A stretch of DNA of 64,000 bases from Thermosynechococcus sp. CL-1 (GTDB taxonomy: Bacteria > Cyanobacteriota > Cyanobacteriia > Thermosynechococcales > Thermosynechococcaceae), in NCBI RefSeq assembly GCF_008386235.1, contig NZ_CP040671.1, forward strand, positions 2,482,001-2,546,000, in the 5' to 3' direction. A program made the position numbers and the translations under genes. This document shows positions 31,505 to 37,867 of this stretch, one piece after another. Below the pieces are notes generated by a model that did no database searches, was not told the DNA's origin, and saw only the letters and a program-made list of their open reading frames with translations. Numbering within the stretch: position 1 is the stretch's first letter; each line of letters starts with the position of its first letter.

Positions 31505-34500
31505 TTAGCGTTCCTGAAGCTCCTCAGGGGAGGGATGGGCCGGCGCTGGCAATGAATCAGGAAGACCGCGGTGGGCAGTACGCTCAAAGCCATGCAGGAT
31601 CACATAAAAACAGGGAATGAGAAAGAGGGTGAGCAGTGTTGCCACAGCCAACCCAGAAAACACAACAATGCCAAGGGGCTGCAAAAATTCTGAGCCTTCG
31701 CCTAGCCCCAATGCCAAGGGGAACATTCCCACCACCGTTGTAATTGTGGTCATCATAATTGGGCGCAGACGGGCAGGGGCAGCTTTGCGAATGGCTTGGC
31801 TATGGCTACAGCCTTCCTGTCGGTAAATCTCATTCGCTAACTCCACCATGATGATGGCATTGTTGACGACAATCCCCACAAGCAAAATGGCACCGACAAT
31901 GACCGTGGCGCCAATGGCCGTCCGTGTCAGGTACAAGCCCCAAATTCCACCGGCCAAGGCCAAGGGAATGGTAAACATAATCACTAGGGGGTCAAGCAAC
32001 GAGTTGTACTGTACCGCCATGACCACAAACACGAGAAAGGCCGCCAAACCGCCTAAGACCACTAAGGCCTGTTGCAATTGCTGATTGGCTTGAGCCGCCG
32101 TACTTGGCATCAGGGACACGCCCGGCGGAAACTCCAGATCGTTGAGAATGTCATTCACTTGGGCAAGGGCAGCACTGAGACTGGCACCTTCAACAAGATT
32201 GCCCGCTAGCATAAAGACCTGCTGCTGGTTAATGCGGCGGATTTCACCGGGGGCTTGACTGGGTTCGATGCGAGCGACATCCCCAAGGCGGAGGGGACGG
32301 TTATTGGCGGTAAAAAGGGGAATCGTTGTCAGGTCAGTAGGCGTTTGAATGCTTTCACTGTCTAGTTGGACACGAATATCCACTAGGCGATCGCCCCGTT
32401 GCAGGCGAGTGGGCACAAACCCCTCCAAAGCTGTTTGAATTGTCTGGCCAAGGTTGAGGGTATTCAGCCCCAGTTCGCTTACCCGCTCCCAATCTGGCAA
32501 AATTTGAATCTCTGGCTGGCGAGGATCCGCATCGGGGCGAAAGCGCACCAATGTGGCTTTTTCATCAAGGACTTGCAGCACTTGGCGACCAAAGCGGTTG
32601 AGGGTCTGCTCATCACTGCCCCGTAACATCACATCCACATCGGCACCGCGCACCGGCGAGTTGGTAAGAATAATGCCGCGCACTTGGCCAGGACTCAAGC
32701 GCAGCCGCACCCCTACAAGGTTGAGTTGATCAAGGGCTTTCGTCGCTTCCGTAATATAGCGATCCACGCTAACACCACGCCGCAGAACAATGGTGCTATT
32801 AGCTCGCAGGGGATTGGCAATGGTATTCGTGCCAAAGAGGGCACCGCCAGTTGTGGTAAAGACCGCCTCCGTGCCCGGTTGAGCCATCAGCACCTGATCC
32901 ACTGCCTCCATGACACGGCGACTGGTAGGCAGGGGGGTTCCCGGTGGAAAAATGGCCATGAGGTTAACTTGACCCGTATTAATGCGCGGCAGCAGTTCTT
33001 GGGGAATTTGCTGAGCCAAAAGCCAACTTCCTCCCCCTAGAAGGGCGATCGCCAGCCCCACCACCAGCCAGCGTGCCCGTAGCACTTGCCCCAAGGCCCA
33101 TTCATAGCGTGCGGTCAACCAGAGAAATTTTTCATTAAAAAGGCGAATAAACGCGACCTGCCGTAGGCGATTTTGCACCGGCACCCCCAAAAGGCGGGAG
33201 GCCAAGGCCGGCACGACCGTGAGTGCCACCAGCAGCGATGCGGCAACCGCAAAACTAATGGTTAGAATCAACTCATTAAAGAGCAGTGCAATCAAGCCCC
33301 CCAGCAACAAAAAGGGCAAAATAGCGACCAAGTTAGTGAGGGTAGAGGCCAAAAGCGCTGATTCGATGCCTTGGCTACGCCGTTTTATCTCCTCAAGGTA
33401 CTGTTCTTGGCTCATGTGGTGGGGGTCAATATCCGCCAAGGTTTCTAACATCACAATGGCGTTATCCACAACGATGCCAACCCCAAGGGCGAGTCCACCC
33501 AAGCTAAACACATTGAGGGAGAAGTTAAATAGCCCCATCAGCAACATCGCGGCCATTGTTGACAGAGGAATGGCCAGCAAAATAATCAGGGTTTGCCGCA
33601 CCGAGCCAAGGAACAGCAGCACCGCGATCGCTGCCAACAGCGTTCCCGTTAGACCGGCGGTGACCACATTGTTCAGGGAATTGCGGATATAAACCGACTC
33701 ATCAAGGACAGGAATGATCTGCGCATCGCGGGGCACGAGATTGGCTGCCTGTAGCTCGGCTAAACGCCGCTTGATACCATCGGCCACTTCCACCGTATTG
33801 GCTTCCGGCTGCTTGAGAATACTGACTTTAACGGCGGGCTGACCATTGAGCGTTACAAATACCCGTTGTTCAGCACTACCATCCACCACTTGCGCCACAT
33901 CCCGCAGATAGACCCGCTGACCATTGGCGCCTGTCAGCACCACATCCTCAATTTCACTGGTATTACGAAACCGTCCCACTGTGCGGGTTAGGGGTTCTGC
34001 CATCTGGCCGCGAATGCGCCCCCCAGAGACATCTTGGTTGCGATCGCTGAGCGCCGTTAAAATTTGGTTCAATCCTACGCCCGTGGCCTGCAATCGGTTC
34101 AAATCCACAAGAATTCGTATTTCTTCGGTGGTGCCCCCAGAGACGTCCACCCCTGCCACACCGGGGACAATACTCAGTTCGCGATCCAAGTCCTCATCGG
34201 CAAAGACCCTTAACTCGCGGCCACTAAGGGTTTCTGAGGTCAGTGCAAACTCATAGACCGGCAATTGCGACGGATCAAACTTAAAGAGGCGCGGCGACTC
34301 AATAATATCGGGCAAGGTACTGCGGGCACGATTAAAAGCAGCAGTGGTCTCATTTAAGGCCTGATCAACATCGCCACCGGGTTCAAAAAATAAATCAATA
34401 CTGACTTGACCTTCACGGGTTTGGGAATAGACCTGTACCACTCCCTCTGTGCGACTCAGGGCTTCCTCAAGGGGCTTGGTCACCTCCTCAACAGCAACAC

Positions 34501-34684
34501 TAGGCACCACCCCCGGAATATCCAGCCGTACCCCAATGCGCGGGTACGTAATCGCCGGCAACAAATCCACTTGCAGCCGCATGAGAATAAAGACCGCCAA
34601 CACAATGACAGTCAGGGTCAGCATCAGGGTGCCGATGTGGCGGGTCACCGCCAAGCCGCTAAAACTAAACCGTGGGGAGGTCAT
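31505..34684 (-). CDS. RND efflux transporter, AcrB/MexB (HAE1) family
   Basis: 1059 residues, a full-length inner-membrane proton-driven pump. Typical features are the N-terminal helix (LMLTLTVIVLAVFILMRL), two large periplasmic loops, and helix 4 with GGLALGVGIVVDNAIVMLE, which carries the aspartate of the proton relay. The C-terminal half mirrors this with VGIVVNNAIIMVEL. It forms trimers with a membrane fusion protein and an outer membrane channel. Neither gene is next to it here. Multidrug or lipophile export is the usual role; the substrate is not predictable from sequence. Confidence 0.92.
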   Translation of the reverse strand: MTSPRFSFSGLAVTRHIGTLMLTLTVIVLAVFILMRLQVDLLPAITYPRIGVRLDIPGVVPSVAVEEVTKPLEEALSRTEGVVQVYSQTREGQVSIDLFFEPGGDVDQALNETTAAFNRARSTLPDIIESPRLFKFDPSQLPVYEFALTSETLSGRELRVFADEDLDRELSIVPGVAGVDVSGGTTEEIRILVDLNRLQATGVGLNQILTALSDRNQDVSGGRIRGQMAEPLTRTVGRFRNTSEIEDVVLTGANGQRVYLRDVAQVVDGSAEQRVFVTLNGQPAVKVSILKQPEANTVEVADGIKRRLAELQAANLVPRDAQIIPVLDESVYIRNSLNNVVTAGLTGTLLAAIAVLLFLGSVRQTLIILLAIPLSTMAAMLLMGLFNFSLNVFSLGGLALGVGIVVDNAIVMLETLADIDPHHMSQEQYLEEIKRRSQGIESALLASTLTNLVAILPFLLLGGLIALLFNELILTISFAVAASLLVALTVVPALASRLLGVPVQNRLRQVAFIRLFNEKFLWLTARYEWALGQVLRARWLVVGLAIALLGGGSWLLAQQIPQELLPRINTGQVNLMAIFPPGTPLPTSRRVMEAVDQVLMAQPGTEAVFTTTGGALFGTNTIANPLRANSTIVLRRGVSVDRYITEATKALDQLNLVGVRLRLSPGQVRGIILTNSPVRGADVDVMLRGSDEQTLNRFGRQVLQVLDEKATLVRFRPDADPRQPEIQILPDWERVSELGLNTLNLGQTIQTALEGFVPTRLQRGDRLVDIRVQLDSESIQTPTDLTTIPLFTANNRPLRLGDVARIEPSQAPGEIRRINQQQVFMLAGNLVEGASLSAALAQVNDILNDLEFPPGVSLMPSTAAQANQQLQQALVVLGGLAAFLVFVVMAVQYNSLLDPLVIMFTIPLALAGGIWGLYLTRTAIGATVIVGAILLVGIVVNNAIIMVELANEIYRQEGCSHSQAIRKAAPARLRPIMMTTITTVVGMFPLALGLGEGSEFLQPLGIVVFSGLAVATLLTLFLIPCFYVILHGFERTAHRGLPDSLPAPAHPSPEELQER

Positions 34685-34750: not shown

Positions 34751-36091
34751 TCATATCCACACCCAGCGATCGCGCCCCCCATGTTTCGCCTTATACAAGG
34801 CCTGATCCGCACGAGGAATCGAGTCACTGATCACCTGTTCCCCCGGTCGAAAAAGCGTGCCACCCAAACTAATGGTTGCAGCCAAAAACTGCTGATCTCC
34901 TAGTTCAATTGGTTTGCTTCTCACCACAGCGCAAAGTTTCTCCGCCACCGATTTGGCGTGGTCCTCGTTTAAGGCAAAAAACAAAAGGACGAATTCTTCG
35001 CCGCCCCAGCGCACCAAAATACCGTCTTTGCAAGCCTCTAACACCTGCTTGGCTCTTGCTGCCAATGTGCGCAGGACAACATCCCCTTGATCGTGACCAT
35101 AGGTATCATTGATGCGCTTAAAGTAATCAATGTCGAAAATCATGACCGCTAGGCTCGTCTGTCCGCTTGCCGCTTGGGTTTCGTAGGCTTCTACACGACT
35201 CAACAAAAACCGGCGGTTGTAGGCGCCAGTGAGGGGATCCAACCACGCCAAGGCCAAAAGTGCTTGCTCCCGCTGGCGCATATCGGTGATGTCCGAAAAA
35301 ATCCACACGCGCCCTAGCCTGCCATCCCCTTGGACGGGGTGGGTATCAATGAGCACTGTTTTCTCACCAAGCTGACATTCCCCCTTGGCACTAAAGTTAG
35401 CATTGGTACCCAAATCCGCAAAAATGCGCTCTAGCTCCTCACGGTTATCGCAACGTTGCCGTGCCTGTTTCATGTGCTGCGCCACAAGGGAAATGGGATG
35501 GTTGCCCGGCGGTAGTTGCAGCCAGTCACTGGCATAGGCGTTCACCATTGCCGTAGTGCCATCCCCTTTGATGAGTACCAAGCCTAGGGGAACAGTGTTA
35601 AAAATATCTTGAAATTGTACTTCAAAAAGAAAATTTTGCTGATTCCGGTAGTGATCCGCCAATAGTTGCCGATAGAGGGCGGCGATGTATTCCTTTTGTT
35701 GGGTCACTCGCCCCAAAAGGTTGGCCTGCGGATTAATCAATAACAATCCTTGACGCCATTGTGCGGGCTCACCACAGGGCAGGTAGACCAGTTGTTCAAT
35801 GCGGTCTAGATAGCACAAAAAAATTGAGGGCAGTTTTTTCTGTAATAAAGGCGTCAAATCCACAGCAGCAGCCGGCAGGACGTCTCGCCACGGACACCGC
35901 AGCTCGATTGGCGGAAAGGGGGTTGCGCTGCTTGTGGTGATGATTTGGGCGCGATCGCCCGCCTCATTCACTGTTAGGGCAAGCACCAGATCCACCTGAA
36001 ACCAACTGGCAATTAAGTGGCAAAAAGCAGTAATGCCATCGGGGGTGGGCAAAAGCTGGTGGGAGGAGTGTTGCTGCAACTTTTTAAGCAT
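34751..36091 (-). CDS. Diguanylate cyclase with PAS domain, partner of RsbQ-type hydrolase
   Basis: 446 residues. An N-terminal GAF-like region (about 1-140) is followed by a PAS domain (about 155-270, FQDIFNTVPLGLVLIKGDGT and VNAYASDWL) and a C-terminal GGDEF domain. In the latter, DPLTGAYNRRFL, IFDIDYFKRINDTYGHDQGD and RWGGEEF keep the residues for c-di-GMP synthesis. The EFHxR inhibitory I-site is not obvious. It begins 3 nt after the RsbQ-like hydrolase gene, and a PAS domain is what RsbQ contacts in Bacillus. I infer that the hydrolase gates this cyclase. Confidence 0.88.
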   Translation of the reverse strand: MLKKLQQHSSHQLLPTPDGITAFCHLIASWFQVDLVLALTVNEAGDRAQIITTSSATPFPPIELRCPWRDVLPAAAVDLTPLLQKKLPSIFLCYLDRIEQLVYLPCGEPAQWRQGLLLINPQANLLGRVTQQKEYIAALYRQLLADHYRNQQNFLFEVQFQDIFNTVPLGLVLIKGDGTTAMVNAYASDWLQLPPGNHPISLVAQHMKQARQRCDNREELERIFADLGTNANFSAKGECQLGEKTVLIDTHPVQGDGRLGRVWIFSDITDMRQREQALLALAWLDPLTGAYNRRFLLSRVEAYETQAASGQTSLAVMIFDIDYFKRINDTYGHDQGDVVLRTLAARAKQVLEACKDGILVRWGGEEFVLLFFALNEDHAKSVAEKLCAVVRSKPIELGDQQFLAATISLGGTLFRPGEQVISDSIPRADQALYKAKHGGRDRWVWI

Positions 36092-36094
36092 GCC

Positions 36095-36919
36095 CTAGTT
36101 GGCGTATATGACATATTTTCTGAGGAGTGGACCAACAACCTCAGGATGGGTCATGTGGGGCAGATGACCTTGGGCGTCAATCCAGTCAAGGGTACTTTGG
36201 GGTAGGGCTGCCTGCAGCCACAGGGCCACCCCTTGGGGCACAACAAAGTCGTCGCGGTTAAAAATCAGATGAACCGGTTGCTTGACCTTGCTGATAAAGG
36301 AGCGGGTATCTGCTTCAAAGATCATTTGTAGGGTACGCAGGGCAATATCGGGCTGCAAGCGAAAGAGGGTTTGCGAAAAATTAGCCAAGCGGTGCTCGTC
36401 GGTCACACCAAACATCAGGGGAGCAAATCCCGCTGCCCAAGCTTGGTAGTTGGTGACCATTGCCTCATAAATCGACTGTAGGTCTTCCGGCAGGAGGGTG
36501 CCGGGATAATTCTCCTCTTTCAGGTAATAAGGGGAGGGGCCAATCCAGATGTGTCGCCGAAACAAGTCAGGTCTGGCGATCGCGGCAATTGCGCCAATCA
36601 TGCAACTGACGGAATGACCAACATATATGCAGGATTGGACACCAAGGCTATCTAGTAATTCAATGAGATCGTCAGCATAACCATACAAATGACTGTGTCT
36701 TTGCAGGTCGTAGCGGCGCAACGTGTCTTCATCGGAGCCACAGCCTGCAAGATCATAGCGAATATAGGTGAAGTCCTCAGGCAAGAAAGGCATTAGGTAA
36801 TCCCAAGCGCTTTTATCGGTACCAAAACCGTGTCCTAGAACAACAGGAACTGTCCCCCACTGGTCAATTTGGACGTATGGCTTGAGAGACTCGGAAACAC
36901 AAGCAACTTGGTGTGTCAT
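36095..36919 (-). CDS. RsbQ/KAI2-type alpha/beta hydrolase
   Basis: 274 residues, soluble. Nucleophile elbow GHSVS (S103), acid D224 in NRDDFVVP and H252 in GHLPHMTHP complete a catalytic triad. GHGFGTDKSAWDYL and the RYDLAGCGSDE region place it in the RsbQ/D14/KAI2 branch. These proteins bind a small hydrophobic ligand and signal to a partner. In Bacillus subtilis RsbQ activates the PAS-phosphatase RsbP; in plants the relatives are strigolactone and karrikin receptors. The partner here is probably the PAS-GGDEF protein encoded 3 nt downstream. Confidence 0.85.
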   Translation of the reverse strand: MTHQVACVSESLKPYVQIDQWGTVPVVLGHGFGTDKSAWDYLMPFLPEDFTYIRYDLAGCGSDEDTLRRYDLQRHSHLYGYADDLIELLDSLGVQSCIYVGHSVSCMIGAIAAIARPDLFRRHIWIGPSPYYLKEENYPGTLLPEDLQSIYEAMVTNYQAWAAGFAPLMFGVTDEHRLANFSQTLFRLQPDIALRTLQMIFEADTRSFISKVKQPVHLIFNRDDFVVPQGVALWLQAALPQSTLDWIDAQGHLPHMTHPEVVGPLLRKYVIYAN

Positions 36920-37095: not shown

Positions 37096-37731
37096 CTATT
37101 GACTAGAAAACTGTTGCCGCAGCCGTCGCAGCGCAGCCCCTGTGCCTTGGGTTGCCGCCTCTTCGAGGACAGCACTCATCAACGCTACTAAGTTAATGTC
37201 TGGAAAATAGCGGCTTTTGGATCGAGGGACATAGGTCTGGCCATCGAGAGCATAAATGCTCAAGCCCGTTGACGTAAAGAGCCACACTTCAGGAACGCGA
37301 TAAAGAAGGTAGTCCTCAGCCACTGTATAGGTGGTGACATCAATCTCAATCACCAAATCGGGTGGCGGATCGGTTTGCCAATCAATACGGTCTTTGCCGA
37401 CGGCTGCCGTCCAATTGTCAATATAGAAGCAATAGTCAGGCTCAATGCCATCCATCTCAGGAATCTCCATGGTGATCGGCGTAAAGGCTTCGTAATTGCG
37501 CTCCTCACTATCCAGCAAAATTTTGACAACATCGGCAACGATATTCGCTTCGCGGCCATGACGGGGTAAGGGACTCATGAGCAAAATTTCCCCCCGACGA
37601 AACTTGATGCGGGGAATCGAACCATCGCCACGGCTGTTGCGGAGGCAACAGTAATCTTGCCACGTACCCGGCATGCGTAGGACACTGCCGGGGGGAAGAA
37701 TAATTTTGGCTGGAGAAACAACCGCATACAT
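37096..37731 (-). CDS. Uma2/DUF820 family putative endonuclease
   Basis: 211 residues of the Uma2 family, abundant in cyanobacteria. The PD-(D/E)XK-like core is seen as GIEPDYCFYI, PPDLVIEIDVTTYTV and VPEVWLFTSTGLSIYALDG. The family fold matches restriction endonucleases, but no biological role is proven for most members. Cyanobacterial genomes often carry many copies. The ATG at 37731 is preferred over an upstream extension of 11 codons. Confidence 0.85.
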   Translation of the reverse strand: MYAVVSPAKIILPPGSVLRMPGTWQDYCCLRNSRGDGSIPRIKFRRGEILLMSPLPRHGREANIVADVVKILLDSEERNYEAFTPITMEIPEMDGIEPDYCFYIDNWTAAVGKDRIDWQTDPPPDLVIEIDVTTYTVAEDYLLYRVPEVWLFTSTGLSIYALDGQTYVPRSKSRYFPDINLVALMSAVLEEAATQGTGAALRRLRQQFSSQ

Positions 37732-37867
37732 GGCAAGGTATATCCACAACAGGTCTAGTTCCACTGTGCCACAGCATCAAGGTTGACGCGCTTTGCGGTT
37801 GCGGATCGCGCGGACGGTGTTCCCCTTGCACTAGCCTAGAAAAGGCAGAGATTCAGAAGAGACAAAG

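Follow-up and report, generated by a model that had tools for sequence, protein, structure and literature searches.

A hydrolase gene coupled to a GAF-PAS-GGDEF cyclase gene in Thermosynechococcus points to a second class of hydrolase-sensor module

Two adjacent genes of the hot-spring cyanobacterium Thermosynechococcus sp. CL-1 probably encode a two-protein signalling unit, in which a hydrolase with a hydrophobic ligand would act on the GAF-PAS input of a diguanylate cyclase and thereby set the synthesis of c-di-GMP. We give this reading a probability of roughly 0.68; the direct contact, the ligand, catalysis and the direction of the change in c-di-GMP are the parts of it that we infer. The genes lie in a stretch of 64,000 nucleotides (the window) from a closed genome of 2.65 Mb. 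Judged by sequence, hydrolases joined to GAF-PAS proteins with a DIT motif form a second, parallel class of hydrolase-sensor module, and not a plain copy of RsbQ-RsbP. This class is apparently undescribed so far, and we find it across many cyanobacteria as well as outside them, in two further bacteria.

The gene pair and its domains

The hydrolase gene is the upstream member of the pair and is separated from the cyclase gene by a gap of 3 nt on the same strand, with the junction TAG-GGC-ATG (Table 1). The initial annotation had described a hydrolase encoded 3 nt before a GGDEF protein, with both catalytic sets intact, and the open reading frames, the junction, the catalytic triad and the GGEEF motif all bear this out. 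Pfam finds Abhydrolase_1 in the hydrolase (E 2e-18), and S103/D224/H252 align with S96/D219/H247 of RsbQ, a triad that is invariant across the hydrolases compared. Both the fold family and the Ser-Asp-His triad of the RsbQ/KAI2/D14 superfamily are thus present.

Table 1. Features of the hydrolase-cyclase locus and its flanking genes in the window
Feature	Position	Strand	Remarks
RND-type exporter (AcrB family)	31505..34684	minus	66 nt 3′ of the cyclase gene
GAF-PAS-GGDEF diguanylate cyclase, 446 aa	34751..36091	minus	probable ortholog of T. vulcanus/T. elongatus Tlr1158
GGDEF domain	34766..35248	minus	Pfam, motif reading; GGEEF intact, RxxD I-site absent
PAS domain, residues ~157-271	35279..35623	minus	hhalign, Pfam in relatives; low-confidence model; DIT motif (FSDIT) at end
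GAF-fold domain, residues ~13-153	35633..36055	minus	AlphaFold pLDDT 70-86 over most; GAF structures Z 10-11.5
Alpha/beta hydrolase, 274 aa	36095..36919	minus	triad S103/D224/H252; RsbQ/KAI2/D14 superfamily, plant KAI2/D14 side of tree
Uma2 gene (PF05685)	37096..37764	minus	between the pair and thyX; fragments in some relatives

GGDEF (E 9e-38) is the only domain that Pfam detects in the 446-aa protein. The RxxD I-site is missing (KDGILVRWGGEEF). The GG(D/E)EF motif and the metal and substrate residues (IFDIDYFK...NDTYGHDQGD) are all kept, and from these motifs the protein is predicted to be a diguanylate cyclase. The Pfam scan of this protein detected no PAS domain. Its PAS region nevertheless aligns with the hydrolase-partnered proteins at 97% probability (hhalign), and because these homologous relatives carry PAS or PAS_7 domains that Pfam does recognise, and the region gives a partial profile match to the RsbP-type PAS, we assign a PAS domain here. 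A GAF fold precedes it, seen in an AlphaFold model of medium confidence (VIA Z ~11). Modelling the full-length protein from five genus orthologs gave a poor result (pLDDT 42), and a model of the GAF-PAS region with more diverse rows is usable for the GAF part only. The protein had been called a PAS-GGDEF protein; both named domains stand, the PAS through its relatives, and the GAF domain had been overlooked.

Both genes are present and adjacent in 6 of the 11 Thermosynechococcus genomes and both are missing from the other five, a distribution that goes beyond a chance pairing. In one of the pair-less genomes (G392) the junction between thyX and the RND gene retains short remnants of the Uma2 gene and of the 3′ end of the cyclase gene (~51 bp), so that a joint loss removed the hydrolase gene along with almost the whole cyclase gene. 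A scan of genome contigs returned a single locus, from the same genus. Two possibly damaged copies were also seen: a cyclase ortholog split over two frames in a draft genome (G385, L064 116-1455), either a frameshift or an assembly error, and a partial GGDEF domain in a 103-aa frame (G000:C1:2349176-2349376) that is likely a decayed copy.

These distributions bear on the idea that the two genes are neighbours only, with unrelated roles, co-transcribed with the downstream RND exporter. The exporter gene is indeed close, on the same strand, and stays beside the pair where the genus has it. However, every one of the 11 genus genomes has it, including those that lack the pair, and elsewhere the pair persists without an RND gene; we therefore dropped the exporter as a component of the system and regard a mere neighbourhood as highly improbable.

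Conservation of the pair beyond the genus

A genome survey of the pair, which the initial annotation had proposed as a check, finds the adjacency conserved well outside Thermosynechococcus. A GAF-PAS profile built from five genus proteins alone was searched against 386 cyanobacterial genomes. At E<1e-5 its only matches outside the genus were in three genomes (G197, G039 and G306), each directly 3′ of such a hydrolase; the next matches, at 3e-4 or worse, were in genomes where the hydrolase search gave none. Matches of the cyclase profile include three histidine kinases (L045, L048, L049) and a class III cyclase (L046), again each directly behind a hydrolase. The flanks (L157, L158) of two weak matches (G435, G129) were searched and hold no hydrolase.

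Among 72,556 plasmid records there was one GAF-PAS match, an unannotated open reading frame spanning the record start of Novosphingobium pP6W2. It has the full GAF-PAS-GGDEF layout, is 33% identical over 435 aa and starts 4 nt inside the end of a hydrolase gene, whose product is, independently, the top plasmid match of the window hydrolase. A plasmid match from Halomonas, a diguanylate cyclase with no hydrolase neighbour, was set aside as generic GGDEF similarity. In Sphingosinicella a hydrolase gene is followed by a gene for a protein with the same type of PAS and a GGDEF domain.

With a mixed profile, 390 genomes of the class yielded 21 further strong loci. One of them (L154) ends at a contig edge, and a hydrolase lies directly upstream in 19 of the 20 that could be tested, although many of these pairs come from close relatives and the counts are therefore not independent events. 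The hydrolase overlap is 16 nt in nearly all of the loci, and the exception (L161, G403:C31) is a second paralog with no hydrolase nearby.

The outputs seen so far behind a hydrolase and a GAF-PAS(DIT) input are GGDEF, histidine kinase and class III cyclase. The cyanobacterial histidine kinases (L045, L048, L049, L159-L177) share the input and the upstream hydrolase with the window cyclase, and differ in their output and in an N-terminal segment that is longer and hydrophobic. In L046 (6806-9136, plus strand) the GAF-PAS module is fused to a second PAS and the class III nucleotide cyclase. A large response-regulator-like gene (~700-825 aa) lies 3′ of the kinase gene in L045, L048 and L049, and its product is possibly the target of the kinase.

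Comparison with RsbQ-RsbP and the plant receptors

Pairs of this general kind have been known since Nadezhdin, Brody and Price (2011) listed 45 adjacent RsbQ and RsbP-PAS pairs with phosphatase, histidine-kinase and GGDEF outputs (PMC3183031), therefore control of a cyclase by an RsbQ-type hydrolase is not new in kind. The pathway from hydrolase through sensor to cyclase that had been predicted for the window is strongly supported by the conserved adjacency, yet as a general idea it was already published. The text of PMC3183031 makes no mention of cyanobacteria; ordinary RsbQ and RsbP-PAS members do occur there (L050-L052, L054, L059, L061-L063) and on plasmids.

Is the window pair simply one more of these? 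It resembles them in having a hydrolase gene directly 5′ of the gene for a PAS signalling protein, in the GGDEF output and in the superfamily and intact triad of the hydrolase. The published RsbP-PAS, though, is always N-terminal, with hPCG (Cys in the hPhG motif) and a conserved F-alpha (e.g. FYQTHFFP) and without DIT (PMC3183031). The PAS of the window protein follows a GAF domain and is thus internal; it reads hPLG (VPLG) and ends in a DIT motif, which is SDIS in relatives. A match to F-alpha was sought in this PAS and none was found, whereas the cyanobacterial RsbP-PAS proteins show both hPCG and F-alpha. One genome (G197) holds both classes of module, a GAF-PAS pair (L048 on C94) and an RsbP-PAS pair (L062 on C71), and the class III cyclase output of the GAF-PAS class is absent from the 2011 list.

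The hydrolases divide along the same line. Two trees place the window hydrolase with those of Novosphingobium and Sphingosinicella and with plant KAI2/D14 (support 95/86 to 99/90), away from RsbQ, and a 100/99 branch separates the checked RsbP-PAS partners from every GAF-PAS partner. The AU test rejects a topology in which the window hydrolase is made to join RsbQ (p 0.00025, for a group chosen after the tree had been seen). Its best solved match is plant KAI2 at 228 bits, against 162 bits for RsbQ, so the label "RsbQ-type" fits the hydrolase at the level of the superfamily and fails at the finer one. Taken together, these sequence comparisons largely refute ordinary membership in the 2011 module, which we consider very unlikely. 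The analogy to RsbQ acting on the PAS of RsbP does not carry over directly either, since the window PAS is internal, bears DIT and follows a GAF domain, and since its hydrolase lies off the RsbQ branch.

The initial annotation had also likened the handling of the ligand to that of karrikin or strigolactone, and here there is some support, as in our sampling the hydrolase falls into one group with plant KAI2/D14. The plant proteins share its fold and triad, and are the closest solved sequences. In contrast, plant KAI2/D14 are not known to act on a GAF-PAS output protein, and the lid phenylalanine F136 of RsbQ is replaced in the Thermosynechococcus hydrolases by a leucine (L142). These hydrolases also form a long branch, and with the lid residue lost the function of the pocket may therefore differ. 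The length of the lid loop does not serve to tell the two hydrolase classes apart, as 10, 11 or 12 residues occur with no clean split.

Two groupings were rejected: an exclusive clade of plant and Thermosynechococcus sequences (AU p 0.009, with Thermosynechococcus on a long branch), and a single clade of Thermosynechococcus and the other cyanobacterial hydrolases with GAF-PAS partners (AU p 0.003), so a single vertical origin of the class within the cyanobacteria is not supported. What these trees can say of the origin of the plant proteins is limited by the long branches of Thermosynechococcus and Sphingosinicella and by sparse sampling beyond cyanobacteria and plasmids. A further set of cyanobacterial superfamily hydrolases (L047, L053, L055, L056, L057, L060) has no sensor neighbour; they form a clade of their own outside the RsbQ clade, with I, L or M at the position of lid F196.

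A proposed mechanism and its implications

We propose that the pair would work in a manner like RsbQ-RsbP, with a hydrolase from outside the RsbQ clade tied to a GAF-PAS(DIT) protein of GGDEF, histidine-kinase or class III cyclase output. The hydrolase may bind or cleave a small hydrophobic molecule in its intact Ser-Asp-His pocket and, as a complex, act on the GAF-PAS input of the cyclase encoded in the same operon. From the PAS the state would then be relayed through the DIT linker to GGDEF, setting the level of c-di-GMP synthesis. The contact of RsbQ with the RsbP-PAS, documented by two-hybrid and pull-down (PMC3183031), is a precedent for such a contact.

A looser arrangement, close to Model 1 of PMC3183031, would have the hydrolase act as a supplier, its product diffusing to the GAF or PAS pocket with no lasting contact between the proteins. 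In its favour, the triad is invariant in all members compared, and GAF and PAS domains are classic small-molecule pockets. In the sister class, however, the two proteins are documented to touch, and the strict adjacency and overlap of the genes suit a complex better, while being compatible with a supplier as well. We therefore think the supplier arrangement unlikely and prefer the complex of hydrolase and GAF-PAS protein.

An ortholog of the cyclase has probably been studied once. We take G089 to be T. elongatus BP-1, and the locus names of SesA, SesB and SesC are likewise our assumption in matching its GGDEF genes. The nine GGDEF genes of this genome agree in order and strand with the named set of PMC5871770, which on the basis of gene order makes the ortholog of the window cyclase (G089:1191635-1192960) probably tlr1158. 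Tlr1158 likewise keeps the diguanylate cyclase residues and lacks a conserved RxxD, and it was studied only as a knock-out for aggregation (PMC5871770). Its disruption in T. vulcanus left aggregation in blue and teal light unchanged (PMC5871770), hence the aggregation phenotype suggested earlier as a check has one negative result from the probable ortholog. Our literature search found no mention of the expected neighbour, tlr1157, probably the hydrolase gene, and, with subscription papers outside its coverage, no paper with both KAI2 and a diguanylate cyclase.

Plant KAI2 and D14 signal through MAX2 and SMXL proteins, and to our knowledge the plant ligand of KAI2 (KL) is still unknown. A more tentative idea, which we hold to be somewhat doubtful, is that hydrolases outside the RsbQ clade, where KAI2/D14 also fall, were already ligand-dependent receptors in bacteria, acting on GAF-PAS proteins with c-di-GMP, phosphorelay and cyclic-nucleotide outputs, and that the plant receptors descend from one of them. 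Others have proposed earlier that KAI2 came from bacteria by transfer, as cited in PMC10504578. If the idea is true, the karrikin and strigolactone receptors of plants would go back to a hydrolase that already served as a receptor when plants acquired it.

For the family, hydrolase-sensor signalling would come in two parallel classes in which the branch of the hydrolase predicts the type of partner, and the hydrolases near KAI2/D14 may gain a bacterial partner that is genetically tractable. For Thermosynechococcus, the pair would provide a candidate chemical input for a diguanylate cyclase without an assigned function.
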